This document shows, one piece after another, positions 5,818-62,992 of a stretch of DNA of 64,000 nucleotides; positions within the stretch are counted from its first letter, which is position 1, and each line of letters begins with the position of its first letter. A model generated the notes under the pieces. It did not search any database, was not told where the DNA came from, and saw nothing but the letters and a program-made list of their open reading frames with translations. The DNA lies in contig JACRIK010000033.1 of assembly GCA_016235865.1 (NCBI GenBank), positions 47,083 to 111,082 on the forward strand, written 5' to 3'. Position numbers and translations under genes: made by a program. This stretch comes from Planctomycetota bacterium (lineage in GTDB: Bacteria > Planctomycetota > MHYJ01 > JACQXL01).

Positions 5818-5872
5818 GAGCGTAGAGCGTGTAGCGTAGAGCGTGTTGTGCTCTATGCTCTTTGCTCTATGC
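5818..5872. repeat. dispersed repeat, GTAGAGCGTATAGC family
   Basis: Alternating GAGCGTAGAGCGTGTAGC and GCTCTATGCTCTTTGCTCTATGC arms form a palindrome between two minus-strand genes. The same family lies at 37867-37930 and in frame inside the acyl-CoA synthetase gene at 6536-6605. Confidence 0.7.
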
Positions 5873-8005
5873 TATGGTAATCCTTGCATCAATAGCAATA
5901 CCGCCTTTCGAGAACAATTTATACGGATTTATATCCAGTTCGGCAATCTGGGGAAAATCGGTCACCAGTTGCGAGATCTTTAAAATGGTTTCTTTGAGGT
6001 TCTGCAGGTCGGATGGTTCCTGCCCTCTGATGCCTTTGAGGAGCGGATAGGTTTTTATCTCGCGGATCATGGCCTCGACATCGGACATCTTCAGAGGCGC
6101 CAATCTGAATGACACGTCTTTCAAGACTTCCACATAGATGCCGCCCAGCCCGAACATTATCAGGTGCCCGAACTGGCGGTCGCGCGATACGCCGATAATG
6201 ATTTCCTGGCCGCCGGCCACCATTTTCTGGACCATGATGCCCTTGATGGCGGCGCTGGCCGAGAGCCGGGACACGCTTTCAATAATCTCCCGGTAGGCCT
6301 TGTTTAATTCGGCCGGCGTATGGATATTCAGTTTTACCCCGCCCACATCGGTCTTGTGCGAGAATTCGGCCGAGATGAGTTTGAGCACCACCGGATATCC
6401 GATGGCCTCAGCATATTCCAGGGCCTGGTCCAGTGACTGGGCCAGTTTGAAATCCGGAATCGGGATATCATAATCGTTAATTACCTTCATCACCTCATCA
6501 GTGGTGATGGTTTCGCCTGAACTTAATGTTTTAGCGCATAGAGTATAGGGCTTAGAGCCTTTTGATATTTTTGCTATACGCTCTACGCCGCTCGCTCTTT
6601 GCTCTGAATTCTGCCAGCTGGAATACTGGAACATGGCTTTAAATGCGGTGATGGCTTGTTCCGGGTAGGGATAGCAGGGGATGCCAGCCTGTTTAATCAG
6701 TTCCACCCCGCGCGAGGCAATCTCTCCGCCCATAAAGCAGGCCAGGATAGGTTTCCGGGACTTCCGGAACATCTCCACGATGGCCCGGGCAATGGCCTCG
6801 GGCTGTTTTTCCTTGCTGGCCGGCAGCAATACGGCCAGTAATCCGTCCACGTTTTTATCGTTATGGGCCGACTCTAGGGCTAGGGAGTAACGTTCGTAGG
6901 TGGCGTCGGCAATCACGTCAATCGGGTTATAGAAATTAGCCCCGGGCGGGAATCCGGCGCGCAGTTTGGCAATGGTTTCCTCGGTGAACTGGGCCATCTG
7001 GAGTATTTTGGATTTCTCAATCTGGTCCGTGGCCATGACGGCCGGCCCGCCGGCGTTGGTGATGATGGCGATGCGCGGGCCTTTGAGGCTGATGTCTTTC
7101 GATGTGTCCGGTGAGCCGGAATAGGTGGCAAAGGCCCGGGCTACGTCGAATAACTCCGGCAGCGTGTCGACTCGGATGACGCCGGATTGCAGAAACCCTG
7201 CCTGGTAAGCCCGGTCCTGACCGGCCAAAGAACCGGTATGTGACGAGGCCGCCCGTGAACCGGCCACGCTCGAGCCGCCTTTGACCATGACAATCGGCTT
7301 TATCTTGCTCACCCGCCTGGCCACCTCCATAAACCTGCGGCCGTTTTCTATCGCCTCAAGGTAGCCGAGGATTACGTTTGTATCCTTGTCTGCGGCCAGG
7401 TAATCTATCAGATCTATCTCGTCGACGTCGATTTTATTGCCTAGGCTGATTAGTTTGGAGATGCCGATTTGTTCCTGGATGGTCCAGTCGAGAATAGCCA
7501 TGCACAGCCCGCCGGACTGAGAGAAGAAGGTAATCTGTCCGCGCGGCGGCAATTTATCCGCCGGCAGGAAGGTGGCGTTAAGCGGGGTGACCAGGTCGAT
7601 GAATCCCACACCGTTCGGGCCGATGGCTCGGATATCGTTATCCTTGAAGACCTGGCGGATTTCCTTTTCCATCCGGGCGCCTTCCAGCCCGATTTCCTTG
7701 AATCCGGCTGTGATAATAATGGCCGACTTGAGATTTTTCTTGGACTCAACGGCGGATTTAAGTATGGGCAGGACAAACGGCGCCGGGACCGAGAATATTA
7801 TCAGGTCAATATCGCCCGGAACGCTTTGGACATCCTGATAACATTTCAGCCCCAATATTTCATCGGCATTCTTGTTGACCGGGTATATCCGTCCTTTATA
7901 ACCGCTGGTGATGATATTCTTGAGGGTGGTGTGTCCCAGTTTGCCCGGTTCGCGCGATGCGCCGATAACCGCGATTGATGAAGGCTGAAAAAGGTCTTTT
8001 ATCAC
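5867..8005 (-). CDS. acd: ADP-forming acyl-CoA (acetyl-CoA) synthetase, fused alpha-beta subunits
   Basis: This 712-residue protein has the full domain order of the fused enzyme. It begins with a CoA-binding Rossmann domain (SIAVIGASREPGKLG). The succinyl-CoA-synthetase-like ligase domains follow, with the phosphorylated histidine at residue 256 (ASSHTGSLAG). The ATP-grasp beta part starts near residue 495 and contains GYPVVLKL, SHKTDVGGV and ELDINP. It makes ATP from ADP plus an acyl-CoA, the energy-conserving step of peptide or aldehyde fermentation in archaea and some anaerobic bacteria. The start overlaps the upstream lipoprotein gene (ATGA). Residues about 467-490, between the ligase and ATP-grasp parts, are encoded by a dispersed palindromic repeat. 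Substrate preference cannot be read. Confidence 0.9.
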   Translation of the reverse strand: MIKDLFQPSSIAVIGASREPGKLGHTTLKNIITSGYKGRIYPVNKNADEILGLKCYQDVQSVPGDIDLIIFSVPAPFVLPILKSAVESKKNLKSAIIITAGFKEIGLEGARMEKEIRQVFKDNDIRAIGPNGVGFIDLVTPLNATFLPADKLPPRGQITFFSQSGGLCMAILDWTIQEQIGISKLISLGNKIDVDEIDLIDYLAADKDTNVILGYLEAIENGRRFMEVARRVSKIKPIVMVKGGSSVAGSRAASSHTGSLAGQDRAYQAGFLQSGVIRVDTLPELFDVARAFATYSGSPDTSKDISLKGPRIAIITNAGGPAVMATDQIEKSKILQMAQFTEETIAKLRAGFPPGANFYNPIDVIADATYERYSLALESAHNDKNVDGLLAVLLPASKEKQPEAIARAIVEMFRKSRKPILACFMGGEIASRGVELIKQAGIPCYPYPEQAITAFKAMFQYSSWQNSEQRASGVERIAKISKGSKPYTLCAKTLSSGETITTDEVMKVINDYDIPIPDFKLAQSLDQALEYAEAIGYPVVLKLISAEFSHKTDVGGVKLNIHTPAELNKAYREIIESVSRLSASAAIKGIMVQKMVAGGQEIIIGVSRDRQFGHLIMFGLGGIYVEVLKDVSFRLAPLKMSDVEAMIREIKTYPLLKGIRGQEPSDLQNLKETILKISQLVTDFPQIAELDINPYKLFSKGGIAIDARITIA
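6536..6605. repeat. palindromic repeat lying in frame inside acd
   Basis: GCATAGAGTATAGGGC ... CTATACGCTCTACGC ... GCTCTTTGCTCTG matches the intergenic elements at 5818-5872 and 37867-37930. Here it encodes about 24 residues of the interdomain linker without breaking the frame. Confidence 0.75.
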
Positions 8006-13124: not shown

Positions 13125-15122
13125 ATGAATAAAATTGATTACAACAATCTGGCGTTTTACAGCGCGCTGGGTTTTAAGTCCGGTATAGAAATCCACCAGC
13201 AAATATTCACCCAAGAGAAACTCTTCTGCCATTGCCCGGCCGGCAGATATTCCAAGGTGCACGACGCCGAGGTGCTGCGCCATATGAGGCCGACCCTGTC
13301 CGAGCTGGGCGAATACGACGGCTGCGCCCTGATGGAATTCAAGACCAAGAAAGACGTGGTTTACCAATTGAACCGGGAAACCGTCTGCACCTATGAAATG
13401 GACGACACCCCGCCCTTTACCGTCAATCAGGAAGGACTGGATATCGCCATTGAGATTGCCTTGCTGCTAAATTGCAGTATCGTGGATGAGATGCACATCT
13501 CGCGCAAGCAGTACTTAGACGGCAGTATCCCGACCGGGTTCCAGCGCACGGCCGTAGTCGGCATCAACGGCTGGATTCCGTTCAAGGACCGGAAGATCGG
13601 TATCAGCCATATCTGTTACGAAGAAGATGCCTGCCGCCAGGTTAGTAATGTTGGGCATCGGGTAACATTCCGAACCGACCGGCTGGGCATGCCGTTGATT
13701 GAGGTAATCACTAGAGCGGATATGCGAACGCCGGAAGAGGCGCGCCAGGTGGTCAACGAAATCGGGCGCTTGGTCCGGGCCACCAAAAAGGTGCGCCGGG
13801 GCCTGGGTTCGGTTCGTCAGGACGTCAATTCCAGCATCACCGGCGGCTCGCGCGTGGAAATCAAAGGCGTGGCTCAGACCTGTATGATGCCGGCTTTGCT
13901 CCACAACGAAGCCCTGCGCCAGGAGAATCTGCTCAAGATAAAGAACATATTGACCAAACGTAATATTGGCGAGAAGAATCTTAATGTGGTTAAGCATGAC
14001 CTGACCGCGGAATTGTCAGGGACGAAATCAAGGACTCTGCTTGATGCCATATATCGCAAGAAGGTTATCGGCGGAATCAAACTGGTTGGCCTAGCCGGCA
14101 TATTCAATCATCCCTGCCAACCGACTACCACGCTGGCTGACGAGGTCAGCGACCGGGTGCGCATCATTGCCTGCCTGGATGAACTGCCCAACCTGTTCCA
14201 TACCGATAAATACCCGTCTTATGACGGTGCGTTGGCTGACCTGGAAATAATTAAGAAGGCGCTGGCTGTGGGCAGGGATGATGTGGCTGTGGTTACCTGG
14301 GGTAGTCCGGCAGATGTCAAGACTGCGCTGGAAGAGGTGCGTCTGCGTATCGTGGACGCCATTAATGGCGTGCCTAACGAAACCAGAAGGGCACTGAAGA
14401 AGGGGATTACTGATTTTGAACGGATTCTGCCCGGCGCCAACCGGATGTATCCGGATACTGACTCTCCGCCCACCAAGATTACCCATGAGCGAGTCAACAA
14501 GATAAAGGAATATCTGCCTGAAGCGCCCTGGGCCAGGGAACAGCTCTACGCTAAGATGGGCATGGCTTATACCGTGGCGCGTGATTTAGCTATCTCTGAC
14601 AAGGCATCTCTAGCTGAAACGATTATCAAGGATTACAAAGTAAATCCGACATTAGTCGGCGCAGTCCTGACCCAGCAACTGACTGCGCTAAAACATAAGG
14701 GTATGAGAGCGGATAAAATATTAGATGAATCATTCAAAGAACTCTTTGAACTCTATTCTAAAGGCCTGTTCCACAAAGAGGCCATTCCGCTGATTCTGAC
14801 CCAGTTGGCTGGTAATATTCCTGATGATTCCGCGCCTGTCATTGCGACCCCGCCGGGGCGGGGGAAGCAATCTCATTTGGTTAAGGATATTATATCAAGG
14901 ATGGATTTAGGCATCCTTTCGGACAAGCAACTTGACAAAGTAATCAGTGATATGCTCAAATCCGGGGAATTCAAGACATTTCACAAGAATGGGGCAGACA
15001 CGCGGGGCAAGCAGATTGCCTATTACAGCGGCGTAATTATGAAGACCTGCCGTGGCCGGATTAGTGGCCAGGCGCTCCAAAAAGCGCTGGCCAAGCGGGT
15101 GAACCATGCCGAACAGTTTTAA
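13125..15122 (+). CDS. gatE: Glu-tRNA(Gln) amidotransferase subunit E (archaeal-type GatE)
   Basis: This 665-residue protein matches GatE in length and order. It has the GatB-like kinase core (LGFKSGIEIHQQI, CYEEDACRQV and the LPLIEV-like GMPLIEVITRADMRTP). A GAD-type insert follows at about residues 280-400. After it come the cradle region (YPDTDSPP) and a C-terminal YqeY-like tail from about 510. GatDE converts Glu-tRNA(Gln) to Gln-tRNA(Gln) and is known mainly from archaea; GatB, the bacterial counterpart, lacks the GAD insert. The partner gatD is convergent, 450 nt downstream. No Shine-Dalgarno sequence precedes the ATG, which abuts a dispersed repeat. Residues 571-583 are encoded by another dispersed repeat. 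Confidence 0.92.
   Translation: MNKIDYNNLAFYSALGFKSGIEIHQQIFTQEKLFCHCPAGRYSKVHDAEVLRHMRPTLSELGEYDGCALMEFKTKKDVVYQLNRETVCTYEMDDTPPFTVNQEGLDIAIEIALLLNCSIVDEMHISRKQYLDGSIPTGFQRTAVVGINGWIPFKDRKIGISHICYEEDACRQVSNVGHRVTFRTDRLGMPLIEVITRADMRTPEEARQVVNEIGRLVRATKKVRRGLGSVRQDVNSSITGGSRVEIKGVAQTCMMPALLHNEALRQENLLKIKNILTKRNIGEKNLNVVKHDLTAELSGTKSRTLLDAIYRKKVIGGIKLVGLAGIFNHPCQPTTTLADEVSDRVRIIACLDELPNLFHTDKYPSYDGALADLEIIKKALAVGRDDVAVVTWGSPADVKTALEEVRLRIVDAINGVPNETRRALKKGITDFERILPGANRMYPDTDSPPTKITHERVNKIKEYLPEAPWAREQLYAKMGMAYTVARDLAISDKASLAETIIKDYKVNPTLVGAVLTQQLTALKHKGMRADKILDESFKELFELYSKGLFHKEAIPLILTQLAGNIPDDSAPVIATPPGRGKQSHLVKDIISRMDLGILSDKQLDKVISDMLKSGEFKTFHKNGADTRGKQIAYYSGVIMKTCRGRISGQALQKALAKRVNHAEQF
14837..14874. 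repeat. palindromic repeat in frame inside gatE
   Basis: TGTCATTGCGA ... CCCCGCCGGGGCGGGG ... GAAGCAATCTC shares both ends with the intergenic element at 40947-41041. It encodes about 13 residues (VIATPPGRGKQSH) in the C-terminal YqeY-like domain. Confidence 0.75.
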
Positions 15123-16965: not shown

Positions 16966-17025
16966 AACACGAATCACACGAACACCGCAGTGACCGCGAA
17001 GCGAATTAAGCGAATCACACGAATA
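16966..17025. repeat. dispersed repeat, AACACGAATCACACGAA family
   Basis: Second copy of the family seen at 2600-2715: GAACACGAATCACACGAACACCGCAG ... GCGAATCACACGAATA. Confidence 0.6.
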
Positions 17026-20710: not shown

Positions 20711-20826
20711 GTAAGTACCCGGTGCGCTTCAGCCACTGGCTGAATGCTGTCCGACCAGTGCTTCGCTTCGCGGTCTCTGCGGAGTTCGCACAGGGCTGTG
20801 GCTAATATTTATTTAGGAGTTTGATT

Positions 20827-22778: not shown

Positions 22779-22922
22779 CCCCGTTAGAAGCGACCTAAAT
22801 AAGATAGCAGAACAATCACCAAATCTAATCTGCCCCGATGGTTAATCGGGACTCCGTTCCGACTCCGCTGTCATTGAACCTGTCTGCGTGCGGATACGCA
22901 CAGGCAGGAGCTTCTAACGGGG
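22779..22922. mobile_element. MITE-like element with 13-bp perfect terminal inverted repeats
   Basis: Ends CCCCGTTAGAAGC (22779-22791) and GCTTCTAACGGGG (22910-22922) are exact inverted copies 144 bp apart. The interior has no gene and contains a CCCGATGGTTAATCGGGA hairpin and a CCTGTCTGCGTGCGG...CGCACAGGCAGG palindrome. A smaller relative with the same ends lies at 59275-59355. Confidence 0.7.
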
Positions 22923-23049: not shown

Positions 23050-23308
23050 CCTTAGGGATGAAAGTTTTCGCCCAAGGATGAATGACTCAGACCAAGGGAT
23101 GAAAGAGTCATCCCCAGGGATGAATGACTCAGCCCAAGGGATGAACGGCTCAGACCAGGGTCTGATTGGGTCAGACCAGGGTCTGATTGGGTCAGACCAG
23201 GGTCTGATTGGGTCAGACCAGGGTCTGATTGGGTCAGACCAAGGTCTGATTGGGTCAGACCAAGGGATGACCGGGCCAGACCCAGGGATGAAAAGTTCCG
23301 CCCCGGGG
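23050..23308. repeat. 21-bp minisatellite, about 12 units
   Basis: Units such as ACCAGGGTCTGATTGGGTCAG, with the inner five nearly identical and the outer ones diverged. Each contains the dyad TCAGACC...GGTCTGA. Because 21 is a multiple of three, one plus-strand frame stays open as a heptapeptide repeat (LIGSDQG). Confidence 0.85.
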
Positions 23309-23348: not shown

Positions 23349-23432
23349 GTTAATTTACCCTTCGCCCTGCCCTCTCACGTCCCGAAGTTATCGGGACTTC
23401 GCTTCGGCTCCGCAAGGGGAGAGGAAATTAAC
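23349..23432. mobile_element. MITE-like composite palindrome containing the CCCGAAGTTATCGGG hairpin
   Basis: Eight-bp terminal inverted repeats GTTAATTT / AAATTAAC enclose CCCTCTC...GAGAGG arms and the core hairpin CCCGAAGTTATCGGG (23381-23395) followed by ACTTCGCTTCGGCTCCGC. This core is the best intergenic match to the elements inside mtaB and the radical SAM gene. Confidence 0.6.
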
Positions 23433-23547: not shown

Positions 23548-24330
23548 TTATTTATCCTTGGTCTCGAATTCGGCGTCTATGATGTTGTCGCCGTCCTTGC
23601 CTTTGCCTTTTTCACCACTGGGCGGTTGCTCCTGCTGAGGGGGTTCTTGGGTTCCCGACATATCGTCGGGACTACGCTCGCCTTGGAAAGAGCTCGCTCC
23701 GCCTGCCTGACCGCCGGTCTGTTTGTTGGCCTGTTCATACAATTTCTGAGCCAGGGTATGGCTGGATTTGGTTAGTTCCTCCATAGCGCTTTTGATTTCG
23801 GCTACGTCTTCCTTTTCCTTGGCTTTCTTGAGCCGCTCCAGCGCGGAGTTAATCTTGCCTTTTTCGTCCGGAGTGACTTTGTCGCCTAATTCGGCTACGG
23901 TATTTTCCGAGGAGTAGATTAACTGGTCGGCCTGGTTGCGCGCCTCGGCCAGCGATTTCCGCTGCTTGTCGTTCTCGGCATATTGTCCGGCGTCCTTGAC
24001 CATCCGTTCCACCTCGTCCTTGGCCAGTCCTGAAGACGCCTGGATAACGATGGACTGCTTTTTGTTGGTGGCCTTATCAAGCGCCGCGACATTGAGTATG
24101 CCGTTGGCGTCTATGTCAAATGTTACCTCGATTTGTGGCACGCCGCGCCGCGCGGCCGGAATCCCGGCCAGGCGGAACTTGCCCAGGGTCCGGTTGTCGG
24201 ACGCCATCTCGCGTTCGCCCTGGAGGATGTGGATTTCCACCTCGGTCTGGCTGTCGGCCGCGGTGGAGAATATCTCTTTCTTGCTGGTCGGAATCGTGGT
24301 ATTGCGGGGTAATCCGGGGACACGTACCAA
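23548..24330 (-). pseudogene. dnaK: truncated second copy of dnaK (substrate-binding domain and tail only)
   Basis: From about residue 10 the 260-codon frame is nearly identical in protein and DNA to residues about 407-659 of the intact dnaK at 26523-28502. The whole ATPase domain is missing. The homology stops abruptly at about 24306, and the frame upstream is unrelated, with only a TTG start and no ribosome-binding site. The substrate-binding part has only a few substitutions (for example AKDEVER for AKEEVER, AENDKQRK for AEQDKQRK) and no stop codon, so the duplication is recent or the frame is maintained. In the Gly-rich tail the copy carries a palindromic element (23652-23682) where the intact gene has [19 protein letters not shown]. 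Probably not a functional chaperone; a free substrate-binding fragment cannot be excluded. Confidence 0.7.
23652..23682. repeat. palindromic element within the dnaK copy
   Basis: CCCGACATATCGTCGGG (23654-23670) followed by ACTACGCTCG belongs to the CCCGAnnnnnTCGGGACT family. The intact dnaK lacks it at the same place. Confidence 0.7.
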
Positions 24331-25047: not shown

Positions 25048-25530
25048 GGGACAAGACGGTATGAGTATAGACACAAGACAGTATAGGTATAGACCAAAGA
25101 CGTTAGGGGGATAGACCAAAGGCAATAGGGGTGTAGAGCAAAGGCAGTATAGGGATAGGTCAAAGGCAGTATGGGTGTAGGCCAAAGGCAGTATGGGGAC
25201 AGGCCAAAGGCAGTATAGGGATAGGCCAAAGGCAATATGGATGTAGAGCAAAGGTAGTATAGGGATAGAGCAAAGGCAGTATGGGGATAGACCAAAGGCA
25301 GTATAGGGACAGGCCAAAGGCAATATGGGTATAGACCAAAGACGGTAGGGGTATAGAGCAAAGGGAGTATAGGGATAGAGCAAAGACAGTATGGGGATAG
25401 ACCAAAGGTGGTATAGGGATAGGTCAAAGGCAGTATGGGGATAGACCAAAGGCAGTATAGGGGCAGGCCAAAGGTAATATGGGTATAGACCAAAGACGGT
25501 AGGGGTATAGAGCAAAGGGAGTATGGGGTG
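25048..25530. repeat. 22-bp minisatellite, about 22 units
   Basis: Imperfect units with the consensus GRCCAAAGGCAGTATRGGGATA repeat head to tail. A three-unit block (GGCAATATGGGTATA, GACCAAAGACGGTAGGGG, TATAGAGCAAAGGGAGTAT) occurs twice, showing higher-order duplication. With a 22-nt period every minus-strand frame stays open as a 22-residue repeat (CLWPIPILPL-like); I read this as an artefact. No unique spacers, so not CRISPR. Confidence 0.88.
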
Positions 25531-25596: not shown

Positions 25597-26436
25597 ATGG
25601 GGCAAATTAAGTTTAAAACCAGCTTGGTTGCGCCGTATTTTACCGAGGCGCCTTCGGAAATCAAGGAGAACTGGCTGAAAAAGATGATAGCGAATAGGCA
25701 AAAGACCTTTCGCGGTCTGAAAAAGGCCATCAAGACCCAAAAGGATTTTAAGGAAAAGATTGCCAAACCGGCCCAGAAAGGGATTGCCTCTTTCATTAAT
25801 CCGGAATATATTACCAGGGGCGGCCGGAGTTACCAGAATATAATGGACAAGACCAAAGATAGTTTTGGCCGGTCTGTAAAGCACTATTTCCAAAAACGGA
25901 AAGACGCCTTTGAGAGCGGGAAATATGAGGAGAAGTTGGAATCCGGTCAAAATGAATATGCCCGTCAGTGGTGCAGATACCTTGGACCGCTTAGGGGCTA
26001 TAAGAAAGATAACATATTAGGGCTTCCCGCAATGGCCATAATGGCCCTGACCGGAGCGAAAGGCCTTGTGTCTTACCTGAGAGAACGAAAGGTTCAAGTG
26101 GATGGCGAATCGGTAAATATCATCACCCCTGAGAAACTCAACCAATTCAAGCGTCGGCTGAACGGCCGGATTGTCCATTGGGGCAGTGAGATAATCACCT
26201 TGGACTATGAAGTCACGGTCATCACGCGGGCCAATGAGGAATTAAATGAATTGGTTAACGAATATCGCCGCCCCGAAATTGCGACGTTCAGTCCTGCGGG
26301 CGCTTCGTCCCGATTAGGTCGGGATTCCGCTGTCGCTTCACATATCGACTTTATAATAGAAAAGATTCCGAATCCGGCCAAGCCGGGTGAACGGATAAAA
26401 CAATTGGGATTGGATATCAGTATAGTTGTGGAATAA
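25597..26436 (+). CDS. hypothetical protein, 279 residues, basic N-terminal half
   Basis: ACAGGAGATATAAAA precedes the ATG. The N-terminal half is very basic and helical (KKMIANRQKTFRGLKKAIK), the centre has a hydrophobic helix (ILGLPAMAIMALTGAKGLVSYL), and the C-terminal half looks beta-rich (VHWGSEIITLDYEVTVIT). I do not recognise it. Residues about 228-248 (PEIATFSPAGASSRLGRDSAV) are encoded by a palindromic repeat. It is the second orphan gene of the accessory block beside dnaK. Confidence 0.55.
   Translation: MGQIKFKTSLVAPYFTEAPSEIKENWLKKMIANRQKTFRGLKKAIKTQKDFKEKIAKPAQKGIASFINPEYITRGGRSYQNIMDKTKDSFGRSVKHYFQKRKDAFESGKYEEKLESGQNEYARQWCRYLGPLRGYKKDNILGLPAMAIMALTGAKGLVSYLRERKVQVDGESVNIITPEKLNQFKRRLNGRIVHWGSEIITLDYEVTVITRANEELNELVNEYRRPEIATFSPAGASSRLGRDSAVASHIDFIIEKIPNPAKPGERIKQLGLDISIVVE
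26297..26340. repeat. palindromic element in frame inside the 25597 gene
   Basis: TCCCGATTAGGTCGGGATTCCGCTG belongs to the CCCGAnnnnnTCGGGACT family; frame preserved. Confidence 0.6.
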
Positions 26437-26522: not shown

Positions 26523-28502
26523 CTAAGATTTATCCTTGGTCTCGAATTCGGCGTCTATGATATTGTCGCCTTCCTTGCCTTTACCCTTTTCGCCACTGGG
26601 CGGTTGCTGTTGAGGTGGCTCTTGTCCCTGCTCAAATCCGCCACCCATCGGCCCGCCGGCATCTGGGCCAGCGCCGGGTCCTGCCTGGCCGCCGGTCTGT
26701 TTGTTGGCCTGTTCGTATAACTTTTGAGCCAGGGTATGGCTGGATTTGGTCAGTTCTTCCATAGCGCTTTTGATTTCGGCCACGTCGTCTTTTTCCTTGG
26801 CTTTCTTTAACCGTTCCAGCGCGGAGTTAATCTTGCCTTTTTCGTCCGGGGTGACCTTGTCGCCTAATTCAGTCACGGTATTTTCCGAGGAGTAGATTAA
26901 CTGGTCGGCCTGGTTGCGCGCCTCGGCCAGCGATTTCCGCTGCTTGTCCTGTTCGGCGTATTGCCCGGCGTCCTTGACCATCCGTTCCACCTCTTCCTTG
27001 GCCAGTCCGGAAGACGCCTGGATGACGATGGACTGCTTTTTGTTGGTGGCCTTATCAAGCGCCGCGACATTGAGTATGCCGTTAGCGTCAATGTCAAATG
27101 TTACCTCGATTTGGGGCACGCCGCGCCGCGCGGCCGGAATCCCGGCCAGGCGGAACTTGCCCAGGGTCCGGTTATCGGATGCCATCTCGCGTTCGCCCTG
27201 GAGGATGTGGATTTCCACCTCGGTCTGGCTGTCGGCCGCGGTGGAGAATATCTCTTTCTTGCTGGTCGGAATCGTGGTATTGCGGGTGATTAACGGGGTC
27301 CGGATGCCGCCCATGGTTTCTATACCTAAGGTCAGGGGCGTCACGTCCAGGAGCAGGATGTCCTTGATGTCGCCTTTCAAGACCGCGCCCTGGATAGCCG
27401 CGCCCACCGCCACCACCTCGTCAGGATTGACCGAGCGATTGGGTTCTTTCTTGAAGTATTCTTTGACCAGTTCCTGGACGCGCGGGATTCTGGTTGAGCC
27501 GCCCACCAGGACCACCTCGTCCAGTTCTTCGGGCTTGAGTTTGGCGTCGGCCAGCGCCTGCTTGCACGGCGCCAGCGACGAGACCAGCAGGTCTTCGATG
27601 AGTTGCTCCAGCTTGGCCCGGGTAATGGTCAGCTGGAGATGTTTCGGGCCGGTGCTGTCAGCCGTGATAAAGGGCAGGTTGACCTCGGTCTGGACCGAGG
27701 ATGACAGTTCGCACTTGGCGCGTTCGCAGGCCTCTTTCAGGCGCTGTAATGCCATCTGGTCTTTGCGCAGGTCAATGCCTTCCTTTTTCTTGAATTCGTC
27801 AGCCACGAAATTAATCAGGCGCTGGTCAAAATCATCGCCGCCCAGATGGGTATTGCCGTTGGTGGACAGGACCTCGACCACGCCGTCGCCCACTTCCAGG
27901 ACTGAGACGTCGAAGGTGCCGCCGCCCAAATCATAGACGGCCACCTTTTCGTTCTTCTTCTTATCCAATCCGTAGGCCAGTGCCGCGGCGGTCGGCTCGT
28001 TGATGATGCGCTTGACGTCCAGGCCGGCGATTTTTCCGGCGTCCTTGGTGGCCTGGCGCTGTGAGTCGTTGAAATATGCCGGCACGGTAATGACCGCGTC
28101 AGTCACCTTTTCGCCCAGGTATGCCTCGGCGGTTTCTTTGAGTTTCTGGAGAATCATGGCCGAGATTTCCGGCGGCGAATACTGCTTGCCCCGGGCCTCC
28201 ACCTTGACCATTTCATCGCCTGAGCCGACCACCTTGTAGGGAACCATCTTTTCCTCCTGGGCTACTTCGGAGCGCCGGCGGCCCATAAAGCGCTTGATGG
28301 AATAGACGGTATTGGCCGGGTTGGTGATGGCCTGGCGCTTGGCTAATTGTCCGACCAGCCGTTCGCCCTTGTCCGTGAATGCCACGATGGACGGGGTCAG
28401 CCGTCCGCCTTCGGCGTTGGTGATGACGGTGGTCTCGTTGCCTTCGCGCACGGCCACGACTGATAAAGTGGTGCCCAAATCAATGCCTATAGTTTTTCCC
28501 AT
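26523..28502 (-). CDS. dnaK: molecular chaperone DnaK (Hsp70)
   Basis: The 659-residue protein is complete. The ATPase domain begins [13 protein letters not shown] and contains [41 protein letters not shown] and [14 protein letters not shown]. Next come the interdomain linker ([15 protein letters not shown]), the substrate-binding domain, the helical lid and a Gly/Gln-rich tail ending EEVD-like ([12 protein letters not shown]). It folds client proteins in the cytoplasm with DnaJ and GrpE, neither of which is adjacent. The ATG at 28502 has AAGGAG 6 nt upstream; the frame continues 13 codons further without support. A consensus promoter lies about 190 nt upstream. A truncated duplicate is at 23548-24330. 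Confidence 0.97.
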
Positions 28503-28564
28503 ATAAAACTCCTTTTTAGAGCCAGTTAAACAGACAGACACGAAGTGGCTGTATGTTGTTACTG

Positions 28565-33853: not shown

Positions 33854-34567
33854 ATGATTTACTATTACATTATTTGCGCTGTTGTCGGGTATCTGATTGG
33901 CTCAATTCCTTTCGGTTATATCATTGTCAAACTCAGGAAAGGCATAGACATTCGCACTGTCGGCAGCGGGAATATTGGGGCAACTAATGTTGTAAGGATT
34001 GCTGGATTACCTTGGGGCATACTTTGCTTTTTGTTAGATGCAGCCAAGGGGTTTTTGCCTACACTGTATGTTATTTATAACTTAACTTGTTCACCGCGAG
34101 CGGAAATCGTCGTGACCCATGGTGATTTCGGTGGTTGCACCGTAATAGAAATGACAAGCGGGGCAATAATAGGATTAAGCCTTATTATCGGACACCTTTT
34201 CCCTGTTTATATCCGTTTTAGAGGGGGCAAGGGAGTGGCCACAGCGCTTGGGGTGTTTTTAGCGCTTACACCTGAAGCAACAATTGTTTCATTTATTATT
34301 TGGTTGGTATTATTTTCGTTATTTCGTTATGTTTCTGTTGCGTCAATTATGGCTGCGGTCTCATTGCCAATAAGTTTTGGATGGATAACACAAAGTAAAT
34401 ATCCCATAAGGAGTATATGGGAATATTATTATGGATTATTTATTGTTTGTATCATTGTTGCCATATTAGTTATTATCAAACATATTCCCAACATCAAGCG
34501 GTTGATTAAGGGAACGGAGCCGAAAGTTCGCCTGTGGGGGCGAAAAGCGGAGGAGAAGTTACAATAG
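33854..34567 (+). CDS. plsY: glycerol-3-phosphate acyltransferase PlsY
   Basis: The 237-residue multi-pass protein has the PlsY motifs GYLIGSIPFGYI, GSGNIGATNVVR and FRGGKGVAT. It transfers acyl from acyl-phosphate to glycerol-3-phosphate in the inner membrane, starting phospholipid synthesis. It is about 35 residues longer than usual because of a polar insertion (CSPRAEIVVTHGDFGGCT) in the loop before the third membrane helix. That insertion may be repeat-derived, but I found no clear copy elsewhere. It precedes gpsA, which supplies its substrate. Confidence 0.9.
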   Translation: MIYYYIICAVVGYLIGSIPFGYIIVKLRKGIDIRTVGSGNIGATNVVRIAGLPWGILCFLLDAAKGFLPTLYVIYNLTCSPRAEIVVTHGDFGGCTVIEMTSGAIIGLSLIIGHLFPVYIRFRGGKGVATALGVFLALTPEATIVSFIIWLVLFSLFRYVSVASIMAAVSLPISFGWITQSKYPIRSIWEYYYGLFIVCIIVAILVIIKHIPNIKRLIKGTEPKVRLWGRKAEEKLQ

Positions 34568-37867: not shown

Positions 37868-37930
37868 GCATAGAGCAAAGGGCGTGTAGCATAGAGTTAC
37901 TATACGCTCTACGCTCTACGCTCTACGCTT
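37867..37930. repeat. dispersed repeat, GTAGAGCGTATAGC family
   Basis: GCATAGAGCAAAGGGCGTGTAGCATAGAG ... CTATACGCTCTACGCTCTACGC; same family as 5818-5872 and the in-gene copy at 6536-6605. Confidence 0.75.
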
Positions 37931-37937: not shown

Positions 37938-39758
37938 ATGTCTAACAATCTCTGGCCTCAAATTGAATCCATCCTTCTCCAGATTACCAATCCATCCCAA
38001 TACACCGGCGGGGAGTTTAATAGCGTAACCAAGGACCACAATTCGGTTGATGTCAGGATAGCCCTGGCATTTCCGGATAAATACCAAATCGGAATGTCGC
38101 ACTGGGGCCTGCAGGTGCTCTACGGGCTGGTTAACAGCCGGACCGATGCCCTGGCCGAGCGCGCCTTTGCACCGCAACTGGATATGGAGCAGATGATGCG
38201 GGCCAAAGGCATACCGCTGTTCACATTGGAGAGCCACACGGCGGTCAAGGATTTTGATATCTTCGCGCTCTCGCTCCAGTATGAACTGGTCTATACCAAT
38301 GTCCTGAATATGCTCGACCTGGCCGGGATTCCTCTGGAGCGGACTAAACGTGATGACTCGCATCCGCTGGTTATTGCCGGCGGTCCGTCTGTATTCAACC
38401 CTGAGCCGATGGCGGATTTCATTGATATATTCGTAATCGGCGATGGCGAAGAGGTACTGGTTAAGATAGTAGATGAGTTCAAGAAGTGCAAGGCGGAAAA
38501 ACTCGGGCGCACGGAGACAATTAAGCGTTTGGCGCAGAATGTGCCGTCTGTATATGCGCCGGCATTGCATGAAGTCACATACAATTCTGACCAAACCATA
38601 AAAGCCATAACACCGTTTGCGGTTATTCCCAAAGCCACGGTGGCAAACCTGGATGAGGCGTTTTATCCGATTGCGCCGATTGTCCCGTTCGGAGACGCCA
38701 TCCATAACCGCATCAATCTGGAGATAATGCGGGGCTGTCCGCATTCCTGCCGGTTTTGCGTCTCCAGCGTGATTAAATCGCCTTTGCGCTTTCGTTCGGT
38801 CTTCAAACTCCTGGAACTGGCCGAGCGGATATACCGTAACACCGGCTATGATGAAATCTCCCTGTTGTCGCTGTCCAGCGGCGACCATCCGGATATAGAC
38901 GAACTAATCCTGCGCCTGACCAGCCGGTTCAAGAGCAAGCGGGTGGGGCTGTCCCTGCCGTCCCTGCGGGTGGATGAGCGGTTGATGAATTTACCAGCGG
39001 TCTTGAATGCGGTGCGCAAATCAGGGTTTACCATGGCGCCCGAGGCCGGGACCGACAAACTGCGCGCCATTATTAGCAAGGACATCAAGGACAAAGACCT
39101 TTATGAAGCGGTCCGGGCGGCATATAAAAACGGCTGGCGGCTGGTGAAACTATATTTTATGGTCGGACTGCCCGGCGAGACCATGGACGATATCAAGGCC
39201 ATTGCCAATATGATACGGCAGGCATCGCAAATCGGCCGGGAATTCCATAAACAACCGGGTAATATTAATGTAACGATTTCGCCATTTGTGCCCAAGCCCC
39301 ACACGCCGTTCCAGTGGGCCGGGATGGACAGCATAGAAACCCTGCGGGCAAAGCAGGCATTTCTCAGAGACCAATTAAGGTCCAGGCATATCAAGGTCAA
39401 GTTCCATCCGCCGGAACGCAGTTTTATTGAATCAATCTTCTCGCGCGGTGACCGGCGATTAGGCCGATTGCTTATCAATGCCTTTAAGCAGGGGTGCAAG
39501 TTTGACGCCTGGGACGAGCACTTTGAATTCTCCAAATGGCTCAAGGCGATAGAACAAAGCCAAAAAGAACTGGAGGGATTTAGCCAGCGGAGCGTGAGCG
39601 AAGTCCCGATGGATATCGGGAAATTCTATGCCATTCGCAAGAGAGACATTTCAGAGGTCTTGCCCTGGGATATGATAGATGGCGGACTGAGCAAGGAGCA
39701 TCTCAAACAAGATATGGCTTCTGTGACCCAGGCCGTTGGTGCGCCGATATCTGAATAG
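37938..39758 (+). CDS. B12-binding-type radical SAM protein (TIGR03960-like)
   Basis: The 606-residue protein has an N-terminal cobalamin-binding-like domain (residues about 30-220, DKYQIGMSHWGLQVLY ... VIAGGPSVFNPEPMADF ... GDGEEVL) and a radical SAM core with the cluster motif C267-xxx-C271-xx-C274 (RGCPHSCRFC), as in the TIGR03960 family. The C-terminal part contains NVTISPFVPKPHTPFQW. The substrate is unknown; TIGR03960 proteins are often followed by a TIGR03936 (DUF2344) protein, which is absent here. Residues about 549-562 are encoded by a palindromic repeat. Confidence 0.85.
   Translation: MSNNLWPQIESILLQITNPSQYTGGEFNSVTKDHNSVDVRIALAFPDKYQIGMSHWGLQVLYGLVNSRTDALAERAFAPQLDMEQMMRAKGIPLFTLESHTAVKDFDIFALSLQYELVYTNVLNMLDLAGIPLERTKRDDSHPLVIAGGPSVFNPEPMADFIDIFVIGDGEEVLVKIVDEFKKCKAEKLGRTETIKRLAQNVPSVYAPALHEVTYNSDQTIKAITPFAVIPKATVANLDEAFYPIAPIVPFGDAIHNRINLEIMRGCPHSCRFCVSSVIKSPLRFRSVFKLLELAERIYRNTGYDEISLLSLSSGDHPDIDELILRLTSRFKSKRVGLSLPSLRVDERLMNLPAVLNAVRKSGFTMAPEAGTDKLRAIISKDIKDKDLYEAVRAAYKNGWRLVKLYFMVGLPGETMDDIKAIANMIRQASQIGREFHKQPGNINVTISPFVPKPHTPFQWAGMDSIETLRAKQAFLRDQLRSRHIKVKFHPPERSFIESIFSRGDRRLGRLLINAFKQGCKFDAWDEHFEFSKWLKAIEQSQKELEGFSQRSVSEVPMDIGKFYAIRKRDISEVLPWDMIDGGLSKEHLKQDMASVTQAVGAPISE
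39582..39624. repeat. palindromic element in frame inside the radical SAM gene
   Basis: AGCGGAGCGTGAGCGAAGTCCCGAT...ATCGGGA is the reverse complement of the intergenic core at 23381-23413 (TCGGGACTTCGCTTCGGCTCCGC), with a few changes. Encodes SQRSVSEVPMDIGKF. Confidence 0.75.
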
Positions 39759-40703: not shown

Positions 40704-40890
40704 TGTCCACGGATGGTTCGGGGACATCCACGGATGGTCGGGGGACGTCCACGGATGGTTCGGGGGCGTCCACGGATGGTTCGGGGGCGTCCACGGATGG
40801 TTCGGGGGCGTCCACGGATGGTCGGGGGCGTCCACGGATGTTCGGGGGCGTCCACGGATGGTCGGGGGCGTCCACGGATGTTCCGGGGAC
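40704..40890. repeat. 20/21-bp minisatellite, nine units
   Basis: Units GTCCACGGATGGTTCGGGGGC (21 bp) and shortened 20-bp versions. The mixed period keeps several frames open on both strands; these are not genes. Confidence 0.85.
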
Positions 40891-40946: not shown

Positions 40947-41041
40947 AGATTGCCACGCCCTACGGGTTCGCTGGATGCGGTCCCTTCGGGCTCGCAATGA
41001 CTGTCATTGCGAGGAGTCCCAGCGGAACGACGAAGCAATCT
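40947..41041. mobile_element. MITE-like element, TGTCATTGCGAG family
   Basis: Ends AGATTGC / GCAATCT; a central dyad CTCGCAATGAC-TGTCATTGCGAG joins two inverted halves. One half-type (TGTCATTGCGA...GAAGCAATCT) is also present in frame inside gatE. Located 35 bp before mtaB. Confidence 0.7.
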
Positions 41042-41075: not shown

Positions 41076-42398
41076 ATGCTTAATTGTGTTAGTATAGGTT
41101 GCAAGGTCAATCAGGCGGAGATGGCGGAGATAAAGGACGGCCCAGCCCTGGCCCCGAAATTATCGGGACTTCGTTGCGACTCCGCACGCACGGGCTGGGT
41201 GAATGTCTGCGTGTTGAATACCTGCGCTGTGACTGCCACGGCTGAGGCCAAGTCCCGCAAACTTATCCGCCGGCTCATTCGTCAGAATCCCAATTCCCGG
41301 CTGATTGTTACCGGATGCCTGGCCCAGGCCAAGCCGGAGGAGGTTAAACGGTTGATACGGAAAGATGATGTGGTGATTGGTAATAAAGATAAAGTACGCA
41401 TACCGGAGATGGTTTTGCAACTTAAGAACCCCGCATCAGGGTGCGGGGTAAACTCCAGAACTGAAAAACTAAAGAACAGTTCTTTAGTTCTTGAGTCCTT
41501 TAGTCATTCAGTGTGCGCCGAAAGGCGCACCAGGGCTTTTGTAAAGATTCAGGATGGGTGTAATAATTTCTGTTCATATTGCATCGTGCCGTTCCTGCGT
41601 TCGGAAATGTGGTCCAAGCCGCTAAATACAGTTGATAAGGAGATAAGGGAATTGGTTAATAAGGGTTATCAGGAAGTAGTTCTGACCGGGATTAACTTAG
41701 GCAAGTATGATGATTTAACGGGGTTGCTAAAGAGATTGCTCAAGATTAAAGAACTTAAGCGGCTTCGGCTGAGTTCCATTGAGTTAGAGGATGTCAGCGA
41801 TGAGCTGATTGATTTGATAGCCGAAAATCCCGTTATTTGTCCGCATCTGCATATCCCGTTGCAGAGCGGGAGCGACCGAATTCTTAAATTAATGAAGCGG
41901 CATTATACTTCCGGGGATTTTATAAAGCGGATTAATCTGCTCAAGCGCCGGATAGCGAATCCGGCTATTACCACGGATATAATAGTAGGATTCCCAAGCG
42001 AAACCGATGATGATTTCCGGCAGACCCTGGCGGTCTGCAAGGAGGTAGGTTTCAGCAAGATACACATATTCCCGTTCAGTCCGCGTCAGGGTACGGCGGC
42101 TTTTGGGATGACGGATAATGTCAAGTCCGATATAATAAAAAAGCGTTTTAATATTCTCAATAATCTTGCCAGCGAATTATCTTTAAAGTATAAACAACTC
42201 TTTATCAATAAAGAGGTTGAGGTCCTGACCGAAGATTCAAATGAAGGTTTTACTGACAGGTATATTAAAGTCAGTATCAAACCAAGCGGAGAGATAAAGC
42301 CCAACCAGATAGTTAAGGTTAAGATAACCGGAATTAAACCGGATTGGGTGAGCGGAATTCGGAGTGCGGAATGCAGAATGCGGAGTGGGAATCAGTGA
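41076..42398 (+). CDS. mtaB: tRNA t6A37 methylthiotransferase MtaB
   Basis: The 440-residue protein has the MiaB-family N-terminal cluster cysteines (GCKVNQAE with C9; NTCAVT; VTGCLAQ) and the radical SAM motif DGCNNFCSYC. QEVVLTGINLGKYDD and HIPLQSGSDRILKLMKRHY follow, with a C-terminal TRAM-like domain. It adds a methylthio group to t6A37 of ANN-decoding tRNAs. Two repeat-derived segments are in frame. One, residues about 22-42 (DGPALAPKLSGLRCDSARTG), lies between C9 and NTCAVT. The other, residues about 118-152, lies in the linker to the radical SAM domain. Conserved cysteines are untouched. Confidence 0.93.
   Translation: MLNCVSIGCKVNQAEMAEIKDGPALAPKLSGLRCDSARTGWVNVCVLNTCAVTATAEAKSRKLIRRLIRQNPNSRLIVTGCLAQAKPEEVKRLIRKDDVVIGNKDKVRIPEMVLQLKNPASGCGVNSRTEKLKNSSLVLESFSHSVCAERRTRAFVKIQDGCNNFCSYCIVPFLRSEMWSKPLNTVDKEIRELVNKGYQEVVLTGINLGKYDDLTGLLKRLLKIKELKRLRLSSIELEDVSDELIDLIAENPVICPHLHIPLQSGSDRILKLMKRHYTSGDFIKRINLLKRRIANPAITTDIIVGFPSETDDDFRQTLAVCKEVGFSKIHIFPFSPRQGTAAFGMTDNVKSDIIKKRFNILNNLASELSLKYKQLFINKEVEVLTEDSNEGFTDRYIKVSIKPSGEIKPNQIVKVKITGIKPDWVSGIRSAECRMRSGNQ
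41139..41199. repeat. palindromic element in frame inside mtaB (first)
   Basis: Outer arms CCCAGCCC / GGGCTGGG enclose CCCGAAATTATCGGGACTTCGTTGCGACTCCGC, nearly the same as the intergenic core at 23381-23413. Confidence 0.8.
41429..41530. repeat. three hairpins in frame inside mtaB (second)
   Basis: CCCCGCATCAGGGTGCGGGG (41429-41448), AACTAAAGAACAGTTCTTTAGTT (41467-41489) and GTGCGCCGAAAGGCGCAC (41513-41530) follow one another within about 100 nt of open coding sequence. Confidence 0.75.
42353..42390. repeat. CGGAGTGCGGAATGC repeat at the mtaB/nrnA junction
   Basis: Encodes the last residues of MtaB and ends 4 nt before the nrnA start. The inverted copy is inside gpsA (34935-34968). Confidence 0.65.
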
Positions 42399-59355: not shown

Positions 59356-60104
59356 TGAGCACATTAAAAGCCGTATTTTTTGACATAGACGACACCTTAT
59401 ATTCCACGTCTCTTTTTGCCTCGCGCGCCCGGCATAATTCCATCAGGGCTATGATGGCCCTGGGCCTTGATTTCCCAGAAAAGGCGTTGGTCCGTGAACT
59501 GGAGGAGGTCATCCGGGAATTCTCCTCTAACTACGACCGGCATTTTGATAAACTGCTCCTGCGCATCCCGAAGCGCGCCTATGACGGCGTAAATCCGGCT
59601 ACCCTGGTGGCTGGGGCGGTCATTGCCTACCACGAAACCAAATCCCGCGAGTTGCTTCCTTTCCCAGATGTCGCGGCAGCGCTCAAGGCGCTGGCCCGGA
59701 CCGGTGGCGCCGAAGCGCCATGGTGCCCTAATGGCACCACCTTGATTCGGGGTGTGATTACCGACGGACTATCGGTCAAGCAGTCCGAGAAACTCATCCG
59801 GCTCAAACTCTATCACCTCTTTACCCCCGGCGCTATATTTATATCTGATGATATCGGTATCAGCAAGCCCAATATCAAACTCTATCAGCGGGTTTGTACC
59901 GAGCTCAATCTCGCGCCTGATGAGGTGATGTATGTGGGCGACGACCCGGTCAACGACATTGACCCGGCTAAGGCGCTGGGAATGATAACCGTTTTAATGA
60001 AGCGGGGCGGAAAATACCAGATTCGGCATGGCAAGCTCCGGCCCGATTATCAGAGTGATAACTTCCGCCAACTGTTGAAAATAGTAAATAAGTTGATAAA
60101 GTGA
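59355..60104 (+). CDS. HAD-superfamily hydrolase, subfamily IA (TIGR02253-like)
   Basis: The 249-residue protein has all HAD motifs: FFDIDDTLY with the nucleophile D10 and D12, VITDG (motif II), SKPN (motif III lysine) and GDDPVNDI (motif IV). The cap region (SLFASRARHNSIRAMMALG) resembles the TIGR02253 group of phosphatases. The substrate is unknown. Start is GTG at 59355; the ribosome-binding site AAGGAG belongs to a MITE-like element. Residues 117-129 (GGAEAPWCPNGTT), just before motif II, are encoded by two adjacent hairpins. Confidence 0.85.
   Translation: MSTLKAVFFDIDDTLYSTSLFASRARHNSIRAMMALGLDFPEKALVRELEEVIREFSSNYDRHFDKLLLRIPKRAYDGVNPATLVAGAVIAYHETKSRELLPFPDVAAALKALARTGGAEAPWCPNGTTLIRGVITDGLSVKQSEKLIRLKLYHLFTPGAIFISDDIGISKPNIKLYQRVCTELNLAPDEVMYVGDDPVNDIDPAKALGMITVLMKRGGKYQIRHGKLRPDYQSDNFRQLLKIVNKLIK
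59705..59738. repeat. two palindromes in frame inside the HAD gene
   Basis: TGGCGC-CGAA-GCGCCA (59705-59720) and GGTGCC-CTAAT-GGCACC (59722-59738), perfect stems. The encoded loop falls before catalytic motif II. Confidence 0.65.
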
Positions 60105-61037: not shown

Positions 61038-61063
61038 TATAGCCACTAAGGCGCGAGGTTGTA

Positions 61064-61148
61064 ACACACCCCGTCCCTTCGGGACACCCCTCTCAAGAGG
61101 GGATTTTCCCGAAAGTCCCCTCTAATAAGAGGGGATTTAGGGGTGTGT
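61064..61148. mobile_element. 85-bp MITE-like element between the ABC genes
   Basis: Nine-bp perfect ends ACACACCCC / GGGGTGTGT; inner hairpins GTCCCTTCGGGAC, CCCCTCTCAAGAGGGG and CCCCTCTAATAAGAGGGG. It lies between two genes that should be co-transcribed. Confidence 0.7.
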
Positions 61149-61179
61149 AGGTATTGATGCCTTTGTGGTGAAGGAATTT

Positions 61180-62058: not shown

Positions 62059-62092
62059 TCCTGCCTGATCGTTAGGTGATAAATTTAATTGG

Positions 62093-62992
62093 CTACAGCT
62101 GCAATTGTTTTAATTGCTTATCCGGTATGTGATAACCGGACCAGTGCGCGTATTCCTCTTTAGGCAGGCAGGCATATTGTTCGTAACTGATGGTCAGGAT
62201 AAATCCGCCCTTGACCGGCACTCTGCGGTAATGCGCCTCGGCAAAGAGTATATCGCCTTTGGGAATGGCCTGCAAACTGCGCAAGGTTTTGTAATCGTGA
62301 TAGGCCTGGCGGCTGCCCACAAACCCGTCGTAGGCGTTTTCGGTTACATAATATTTCCGGTTGTCCTTGCGGTATTTGTCCAATACCTGTTCAGTAAAGA
62401 AGATGCCGTGGATGCCGTCCGGGGCATATCTGTATTTCCGCTTAAGCATGTAGTTTGCGACCTCTGTTTTTATCAGGCGCCAGACCCCGGCCACCCTGGT
62501 GGCCGGCAGTTTGCCGTCCTTGATTAGGCGGTAGATGGTCCGGCGATTCACGCCTAATATCGTTGACGCCTGGCTTAAGCTCAATACGCCGGATTCCAGA
62601 TTCACCCAGCCCCTGCACGCAGGGGCTGGGTTCATTCCCAGGACGTGCGAAGGCACCTCCCGTCCGTGGGTCAGGAATTGCCGGACATCGTCCCTGACGA
62701 ATTTCCACCGGCCGCCGGCCTTTACGGCATTCAGTTTCCCTGAATCAATTAATCTGTATATGGTGAACCGGCTTAAACCCAGATATTCGCAGACCTCGTT
62801 TAAGGTCATCAGGTCGGGCTTGATAATGTATTCGGCAGGGGACTTGTATGCAGTTAGTTTATCAAGGTCGCGCATCTCGAAACGCCACTGGCCGGCAAAG
62901 CGCTTGGCCGGTAGTTTGCCGCTCTTGATTAGGCGGTAAGCCGTACTGATGGATATACCGAGATATTTACAGACGTCTTTTACAGTCAGCAT
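62093..62992 (-). CDS. protein with three tandem excisionase-type helix-turn-helix domains
   Basis: The 299-residue protein contains three HTH_17/MerR-excisionase domains: residues 1-48 (VKDVCKYLGISISTAYRLI), 61-108 (LNEVCEYLGLSRFTIYRLI) and 136-183 (LSQASTILGVNRRTIYRLI). Each ends with a GxWRF/GxWKF wing. The C-terminal 110 residues are unassigned. Residues 121-130 between HTH2 and HTH3 are encoded by a perfect 13-bp-stem palindrome. Three such domains in one chain could read a long or repeated DNA site. No Shine-Dalgarno sequence is evident before the ATG. Confidence 0.8.
   Translation of the reverse strand: MLTVKDVCKYLGISISTAYRLIKSGKLPAKRFAGQWRFEMRDLDKLTAYKSPAEYIIKPDLMTLNEVCEYLGLSRFTIYRLIDSGKLNAVKAGGRWKFVRDDVRQFLTHGREVPSHVLGMNPAPACRGWVNLESGVLSLSQASTILGVNRRTIYRLIKDGKLPATRVAGVWRLIKTEVANYMLKRKYRYAPDGIHGIFFTEQVLDKYRKDNRKYYVTENAYDGFVGSRQAYHDYKTLRSLQAIPKGDILFAEAHYRRVPVKGGFILTISYEQYACLPKEEYAHWSGYHIPDKQLKQLQL
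62605..62632. repeat. perfect palindrome in frame inside the triple-HTH gene
   Basis: ACCCAGCCCCTGC-AC-GCAGGGGCTGGGT, 13-bp stem; shares CCCAGCCC tips with the mtaB element. It encodes NPAPACRGWV in an interdomain linker. Confidence 0.8.

Follow-up and report, generated by a model that had tools for sequence, protein, structure and literature searches.

Very short palindromic repeats in frame inside protein genes of a Planctomycetota bacterium: probable insertions of mobile repeat families

The window analyzed here, a stretch of 64,000 nucleotides (C33:47083-111082), belongs to a 2.67-Mb Planctomycetota genome in 38 contigs, and the best named relatives of its proteins come from Planctomycetota metagenome genomes. 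Several of its protein-coding genes contain short repeats that also lie between genes. A sequence-only reading had described these as at least four palindromic families that preserve the reading frame and resemble Rickettsia palindromic elements (RPEs). In this analysis, the repeats were assigned to families under labels of our own: F1 (GCGnAGyCGCAACGGAGTCCCGA(n5)TCGGG), F2 (TGGCGCCGAAGCGCCATGGCGCCCTTATGGCGCTCA), F3 (TGTCATTCC..GGAATCCAG pairs), F4 (TGTCATTGCGAG..), F5 (CCCTCTCCC..GGGAGAGGG), F7 (GAACwCCGCAGwGACCGCG..), and F12 (CCAGCCCCTGCGTGCAGGGGCTGG), with heptamer arrays as an additional class. Two of the four families first named, GTAGAGC and CGCATTC, are heptamer tandem arrays and not palindromes, while F1, F2, and F12 are palindromic.

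In the gene for a HAD-family protein, an F2 copy (a family absent from the earlier list) occupies 36 nt of the plus strand (59705-59740) and supplies 12 codons (GAEAPWCPNGTT); the relatives read ALARTG-LIRGVITDG, and the window protein reads ALARTG-GAEAPWCPNGTT-LIRGVITDG. Among the best 120 of 1920 proteins, 118 have 6 residues at this site, one has 7, and the window protein has 18 (+12 amino acids); the solved relative 2HOQ lacks the peptide. The homologues thus bear out the insertion proposed for this gene, and a peptide of equal length, which would speak against it, was seen in none of the other 119.

Repeats occur at three sites in mtaB, one more than first proposed. The first (41141-41199, plus strand; MtaB residues ~22-42) consists of a 33-nt F1 copy on the minus strand (41153-41185) set between the F12 arms CCCAGCCC and GGGCTGGG. 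The second (41430-41530, plus strand; residues ~119-152) is a cluster of hairpins at 41430-41447, 41452-41504, and 41513-41530, and the third (42352-42392, plus strand) is a GCGGAAT-type heptamer array that forms the C-terminal tail and overlaps the listed start (42344) of the next open reading frame (ORF). An F4 seed (TGTCATTGCGAG) lies in the intergenic DNA upstream of mtaB (41002-41013, plus strand). Site 1 spans 35 residues here versus 20-37 in 21 homologues (mode 30, closest homologue 20), and site 2 spans 44 versus 19-42 in the same number. Weighing against insertion at site 1, one of the 21 homologues (L053) is longer (37 versus 35), as are 4 of the 25 closest; MtaB is therefore a partial exception to the lack of same-length peptides in orthologues, several relatives having loop peptides of similar or greater length. 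Among the nine closest relatives (64-74%), the F1 peptide recurs in P0123, P0124-P0126 show the short form of the loop, and the loop is occupied by other peptides in P0122 and P0127-P0129; judged by eye, these other peptides look repeat-derived. Repeat-looking peptides (SRFRGNDK, NPLSPPLLRGKQGG, SPLPRGERLGEG) were seen in the same two loops of P0122, P0127, P0129, P0132, and P0139. The comparisons suggest that these two loops are hit recurrently as a hot spot, and that the mtaB copies at all three sites are likely insertions.

The proposal that such peptides form loops agrees with AlphaFold2 models of both proteins, in which low confidence is confined to the inserts. The HAD model has a mean predicted local distance difference test (pLDDT) score of 93.2, with values <50 only at residues 119-126, inside the insert; the MtaB model has a mean of 86.7, with values <50 at 32-40, 120-147, and 435-440, all inside inserts. 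The inserts are accordingly predicted to be disordered loops that would spare the rest of the protein; few homologues align at the insert residues, and this by itself depresses pLDDT.

Further window genes named by the sequence-only reading fared unevenly. Copies are indeed present in the triple-HTH gene (an F12 palindrome, ACCCAGCCCCTGC/GCAGGGGCTGGGT, without F1; 62604-62631, minus strand), in an orphan gene at 25597-26436 (an F1-like segment, CCCGATTAGGTCGGGATTCCG; 26309-26345, plus strand), and in a radical-SAM gene at 37938-39758 (a degenerate F1 of 34 nt; 39587-39620, plus strand), the last being the only coding F1 copy found whose length is not divisible by three. In gpsA (CGCATTC/CGCACTC; 34936-34968, plus strand) and in the interdomain linker of acd (GTAGAGCGTATAGC; 6540-6604, minus strand), heptamer arrays are present as claimed, but clear insertion was not seen: GpsA is ~6 residues longer than 1Z82 and has no gap versus 1EVY, which leaves insertion equivocal, and Acd shows no net length change versus 8WZU. 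Two claims fared worse. The gatE gene has a weak, doubtful match to an F4 copy (14837-14877, plus strand; 78% over 41 nt, E 0.004), and a repeat in dnaK is not supported, the sole matches of this gene being to a dnaK fragment (23548-24330) and to 35 nt at its 5' end. This fragment, probably the "dnaK copy" of the earlier reading, lies beside the full dnaK (26523-28541) and is 96% identical to it over 486 nt, with another 282 aligned at 82%.

Sharing of repeats between genes and intergenic DNA was measured in a sample of 847,082 bases, composed of the window and 40 further stretches of the genome. A hexamer gene caller of our own placed 677 genes in 83% of this sample; it missed plsY, and gene counts are therefore approximate. 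When the 677 genes were compared by blastn with the sample's own intergenic DNA, 64 of them yielded 216 matches in total, versus none when the intergenic DNA was reversed. The matches merge into 79 segments. Twelve of these, in 5 genes, were judged by eye to be protein repeats of RCC1- or HEAT-like type or repeats of Y1 transposases and were excluded; 45 internal segments in 40 genes and 22 terminal segments remain. These 67 were not inspected individually, and some few may be fragments of genes. The predicted added peptides measure roughly 8 to 30 amino acids. The in-gene share of copies in the sample was 10/17 for F1, 4/11 for F2, 9/23 for F7, 6/19 for F4, 5/8 for F12, and 3/10 for F5. Genome-wide, with ≤1 mismatch allowed, the F1 seed CCCGAnnnnnTCGGGACTTCG occurs 38 times (control 0), and GTAGAGCGTATAGC has 33 matches (control 1). 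Repeats common to intergenic DNA and gene interiors are thus well above chance and in frame, and the earlier observation is, at its core, real and larger than first noted. In-gene hairpins as such are not enriched: genes of contig C21 contain 30, versus 29 and 32 in two simulations, and its intergenic DNA contains 38, versus 6 and 4. A hairpin census was rejected as a measure because gene hairpins stand at the simulation level. A census of the GCGGAAT heptamer (14 in genes, 2 between) was left unused, the count being, by estimate, about that expected by chance for 12-mers with one mismatch.

Of 30 host genes scanned with Pfam beyond the window, 25 matched a family; the hosts include LysRS (named by structure match), ValRS, a Mur ligase, a TrmE-type GTPase, Der/EngA, type III pantothenate kinase, UvrA, semialdehyde dehydrogenase, dihydroorotate dehydrogenase, a class-III aminotransferase, a pseudouridine synthase, a D-Ala-D-Ala carboxypeptidase, a ComEC-type competence protein, a nickel-insertion protein, and a trypsin-PDZ protease, and likely essential enzymes are among them. 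Three comparison genomes, G001-G003, represent other genera of the same family, G003 being a sister genus rich in F1; G001 is 63% complete, and two of the four family genomes are <80% complete. LysRS aligns with 3A74 over residues 2-295 and 325-519, skipping an F3 pair. It has one full-length copy in this genome, the other matches being partial at 25-37% or translated repeat copies. Its orthologues in G001 and G002 (69-73% identical) match in two pieces around the insert and lack the stretch, the net difference from G002 being 27 residues; in G003, a single match spans the site, with TAG in frame, and the ORF used was incomplete. The net length of the pair is ~81 nt, and the F3 length comes from LysRS because the F3 search pattern matched nothing, although F3 copies do exist (18 counted). 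In PyrD, a composite of F12 and F1 (such composites measure ~57-60 nt) comes shortly after the conserved SCPN stretch, and the solved relative 5UE9 lacks the peptide; the sequence-only reading had placed such peptides mostly away from catalytic motifs. Der has a 12-residue insert between its two GTPase domains, absent from 2HJG. Less exact gaps were seen in CoaX, MurE, Asd (+6), and ValRS (+4). In the clear cases (HAD, LysRS, PyrD, and Der), sequence comparison thus finds homologues without the peptides.

The net length that each family adds was read from empty sites, for which the flanks of a copy were joined and a near-exact match was required elsewhere in the genome. For F1, 7 of 39 copies have one, and six of these give 33 bp; joined F1 flanks gave 73 matches (overlapping loci counted repeatedly), versus 4, 4, 0, 0, and 0 in five mispaired controls. 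For F2, 1 of 16 copies has an empty site (TCCCCTCCCTT|GATGGGAGGGG), giving 36 bp, and for F7, 11 of 25 copies do, with 24 bp supported by six. Thus, of the five families whose empty sites could be read, three bring in complete codons: F1 33 bp, F2 36 bp, and F7 mostly 24 bp. F1 and F2 also lie at the tips of other palindromes, as in the F1 empty sites CCCCTCTAAAAA|GAGGGGTAGGGG and CAGCCCCTGCGT|GCAGGGGCTGG. No target-site duplication is visible at the empty sites examined; one of 1-2 bp could be hidden, because F1 begins with G and the base after the element is usually G as well. A generic empty-site scan was dominated by 21/22-nt tandem arrays and included an F2-like insert of 33.

F1 was followed through 78 copies in five genomes with a search that admitted lengths of 32-36 nt and would miss longer forms. 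The lengths were 33 (43 copies), 36 (28), 34 (5), and 35 (2); the 33-nt element is the form of this genome (34/39) and the 36-nt element that of G003 (26/35). The G003 copies are the F1-pattern matches in loci around all 33 places listed, of 41 counted. Coding copies number 47 of 78 (19/39 here, 27/35 in G003, and 1/4 in the other three genomes), those of G003 falling in 25 ORFs. Coding copies are 33 or 36 nt long in 46 of 47 cases versus 25 of 31 for non-coding copies (p 0.014); the coding criterion includes an open frame across the copy, and only the non-coding length figure is therefore independent. All three codon phases are used, 19/14/14 across the 47 coding copies and in both orientations, which supplies the phase count proposed by the sequence-only reading; the three frames yield unrelated peptides. 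Gene orientation is preferred (33/47, p 0.008). Of 72 non-redundant sites, 71 have a purine as the base 3' of F1, and the four bases 5' of the element favor G, C/T, C/T, and T, significantly overall and in coding sites. Complementarity between the flanks of F1 sites (8/62 at a score ≥14 versus a mispaired mean of 2.6) was rejected, since the best of 200 shuffles also reached 8.

The families differ in their spread. F1 has 32 matches here, 41 in G003, 4 in G002, and 2 in G001, and one to three matches in 17 of 115 other genomes. F2 has 39, 4, 10, and 0, respectively, and its matches in 27 of the other 115 genomes are at about the control level. F7 has 74 matches here and none in G001-G003. A Pfam scan of 20 of the 25 G003 ORFs (one without a match at 1e-8) named hosts by their domains, among them a ProRS-type synthetase, GcvT, DapF, a MurG-type transferase, a MiaB-type enzyme, a MoaA-type protein, FeoB, and EF-G. 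For seven G003 hosts, the sample of this genome contains a protein that aligns over the element. The MiaB-type (54% identical), MoaA-type (52%), and Acd (35%) proteins of G003 carry the F1 peptide, and their counterparts here lack it; two others (L145 and L154) show partial gaps only, MurG shows no clear gap against the orthologue here, and the trypsin-PDZ protease carries F1 in both genomes.

Taken together, these results indicate that the in-gene palindrome copies are most probably insertions of several very short, likely selfish mobile repeat families, three of the five adding whole codons. We infer mobility from dispersal, empty sites, and lineage limits. In these three, the complete codons keep the host gene in frame, and translation of the insert is predicted to yield a disordered loop at the protein surface. 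The copies would have spread by transposition without visible target-site duplication, perhaps acting on single-stranded hairpin DNA through an enzyme supplied in trans. Selection would then remove insertions that break the frame or a structured core, so that those in loops and linkers persist; with most of a gene-dense genome accessible to them, element lineages whose length is divisible by three would be favored. The heptamer arrays are set apart from the mobile palindromes and may grow by slippage.

A further step, that these are minimal mobile elements tuned to the codon, with a transposed unit that is itself of 24, 33, or 36 bp and with genes as the main habitat, is put forward tentatively and is rather doubtful. 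In its favor, the F1 of G003 is one codon longer than that of this genome (36 versus 33), and 27 of the 35 copies examined there lie in ORFs. If it holds, insertion into protein loops would be routine and would steadily supply essential enzymes with new loops. A whole-codon element length was found in no report in the open-licence literature, searched mostly by broad queries and by one direct query.

Several observations weigh against the mobile-element interpretation or its codon-length component. One F1 empty site gives 55 bp, the 36 bp of F2 comes from one empty site and the HAD comparison, and single F7 copies give 23, 25, 33, 35, 39, 41, and 54 bp (some gave two). F4 (empty sites for 2 of 22 copies) adds 29 bp in both cases, and F12 (1 of 13) adds 17 bp; three families out of five is statistically weak. 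The way in which coding F1 copies are defined itself enriches them for multiples of three, and the preference in the left flank of F1 does not reach significance when the 27 non-coding sites are taken alone. The in-gene share of each palindrome family counted in the sample is below the 83% coding share. Element sequences have 5 or 6 of 6 frames open, a figure matched by 39-78% of shuffles. Outside the family, F7 has 1-7 near-matches in 29 of 55 genomes (~71 versus ~19 in controls). Finally, a link to a mobilizing transposase appears to be absent from the family genomes examined. The separate idea that the elements avoid stop codons was dropped, as they are no freer of stops than shuffles, and the chances given to codon-tuned elements were reduced slightly for it.

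The likeness to RPEs that was first proposed holds as an analogy. RPEs and the palindromic elements of Wolbachia are described as dispersed, intergenic as well as in frame in conserved genes, and solvent-exposed as inserts (PMC3767692, PMC2229807, PMC10969869). Likewise, F1, F2, F12, and others are palindromes found both between genes and in frame inside them, where homologues lack the residues, with several families per genome. As to placement, low-confidence loops were seen in two models, HAD and MtaB, and the Der insert lies between the GTPase domains. Membership in the Rickettsia families is not supported: RPEs measure 100-150 bp, whereas F1 measures 33 or 36, F2 36, and F7 24 bp here, F1 uses all three codon phases, the net lengths are whole codons, and the phylum is different. 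Multiplicity of families, which had been offered as a difference, is not one, since Rickettsia is itself said to carry ten RPE families (PMC10969869). F3 and F4 contain ATGAC on one strand, as do RPE-4/6/7 (PMC3767692). Bacterial miniature inverted-repeat transposable elements (MITEs) with ORF fusions, such as the 107-bp Correia/NEMIS and 127-bp ERIC elements (PMC2229807), are similarly non-autonomous and in frame with host ORFs; unlike the repeats here, which are about one third the size and have no visible duplication, those elements exceed 100 bp and carry inverted repeats at their termini, in many cases together with a terminal TA motif.

The strongest competing explanation, whose chances we place a little below even, is that these are ordinary repetitive extragenic palindromes (REPs) moved by a REP-associated tyrosine transposase (RAYT) or another Y1 (HUH) transposase, the in-gene copies being a tolerated minority and the codon length a matter of survivorship or coincidence. 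In PMC3733652, intragenic GTAG/CGTC REPs are described as 20-40 bp stem-loops, some coding for 20-30 amino acids, in genes that include uvrA, tRNA synthetases, and pseudouridine synthases; some lie inside other palindromes, and REPs are reported in the PVC group including R. baltica. F1 and F2 are likewise multi-copy stem-loop repeats of this size, and the whole range of 24-36 bp would fit; F7, at 24 bp, has the right size, but no clear stem was found by eye. The lack of visible target duplication together with a preferred flank would fit HUH transposition, and two Y1_Tnp genes are present in this genome. Against this explanation, GTAG or CGTC occurs in some of the F1 copies listed and forms a constant end in none of the listed copies of F1, F2, or F7. 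The two Y1 genes here carry ends of their own (GGGGACAGACCACATATTTT), and the five Y1_Tnp hits, from three of the four family genomes, have no F1, F2, or F7 in their fetched flanks, so that no RAYT flanked by these elements was seen at the five loci (two of the genomes being <80% complete). F1 is present in G001, which has no Y1_Tnp match at 63% completeness. In G003, 27/35 F1 copies lie in ORFs; set against the predominantly extragenic position of REPs, the counts are mixed, with 19/39 F1 copies coding here, beside the F2, F7, and F4 shares given above. Whole-codon length is not mentioned in the consulted part of PMC3733652. A Y1 transposase as the mover is thus not supported by these loci; a Y1 enzyme as mobilizer is possible. 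The in-gene palindromes work like RPEs and intragenic REPs but differ from them in length, tag, and transposase link.

The two Y1 genes with GGGGACAGACCACATATTTT ends lie near contig ends (C33:1-2100 and C27:244841-248005), the former followed downstream by repeated remnants of the gene's own 3' end. They resemble TIRYT units in their GGGGACAG ends, such Y1_Tnp units being credited with GGGGWSAS-type ends in PMC3733652, and they carry these end repeats rather than F1, F2, or F7.

Two further explanations are much less probable than the REP one. An origin in place, through slippage during replication or template switching at hairpins and without dispersed mobility, would suit the abundance of heptamer and 21/22-nt arrays and the F7 runs spaced 24 bp, and it is the better fit for the heptamers in gpsA, in acd, and in the tail of mtaB. 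For F1, F2, and F7 it is unlikely: each is one conserved sequence at dozens of unrelated loci, F1 and F2 are common to several genera, and empty sites are clean. Retention for a function, for example because the inserts act as RNA hairpins that tune expression or provide the protein with new loops, is equally improbable. The bias of coding F1 copies toward gene orientation and the repeat-looking peptides noted by eye in several MtaB relatives' loops would agree with it; the use of all three frames with unrelated peptides, the predicted disorder of two modeled inserts, and presence that differs between relatives argue against it. Chance similarity or assembly artefact, near which the gatE match and many 12-nt heptamer matches do fall, is already refuted for the main families by the empty reversed control, by homologue gaps at the same places, and by the same elements in other family genomes.

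Protein-coding palindromes are mostly known from Rickettsia, Wolbachia, and scattered REPs; here their density is high, with internal copies in 40 of the 677 genes called, the phylum is a different one, the hosts include translation, cell-wall, and nucleotide enzymes, and empty sites can be read. This combination makes it testable whether mobile DNA evolves a whole-codon length in order to live in genes, and what share of bacterial protein loop diversity stems from mobile DNA.

Other repeats in the window lie between genes. F1 copies occur at 22834-22868 (35 nt, minus strand) and at 23381-23413 (33 nt, minus strand), the second inside a CCTCTCCCCTT/GAGAGGG palindrome; F7 seeds occur at 16980-16996 (plus strand) and 20771-20787 (minus strand), and a GTAGAGC heptamer array at 37899-37929 (minus strand). 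PlsY (33854-34567) has ~40 extra residues versus its Pfam model, and its extra segment (34060-34190) has no repeat match in the sample. Outside the window, F7 forms runs of two or three copies exactly 24 bp apart at C2:42551, C19:72454, and C27:142546. Intergenic tandem arrays of 21- or 22-nt units, diverged and of many sequences, occupy window positions 25053-25528, 23072-23292, 40705-40888, and 63892-64000, and similar arrays occur at many places in contigs C3, C21, and C26.

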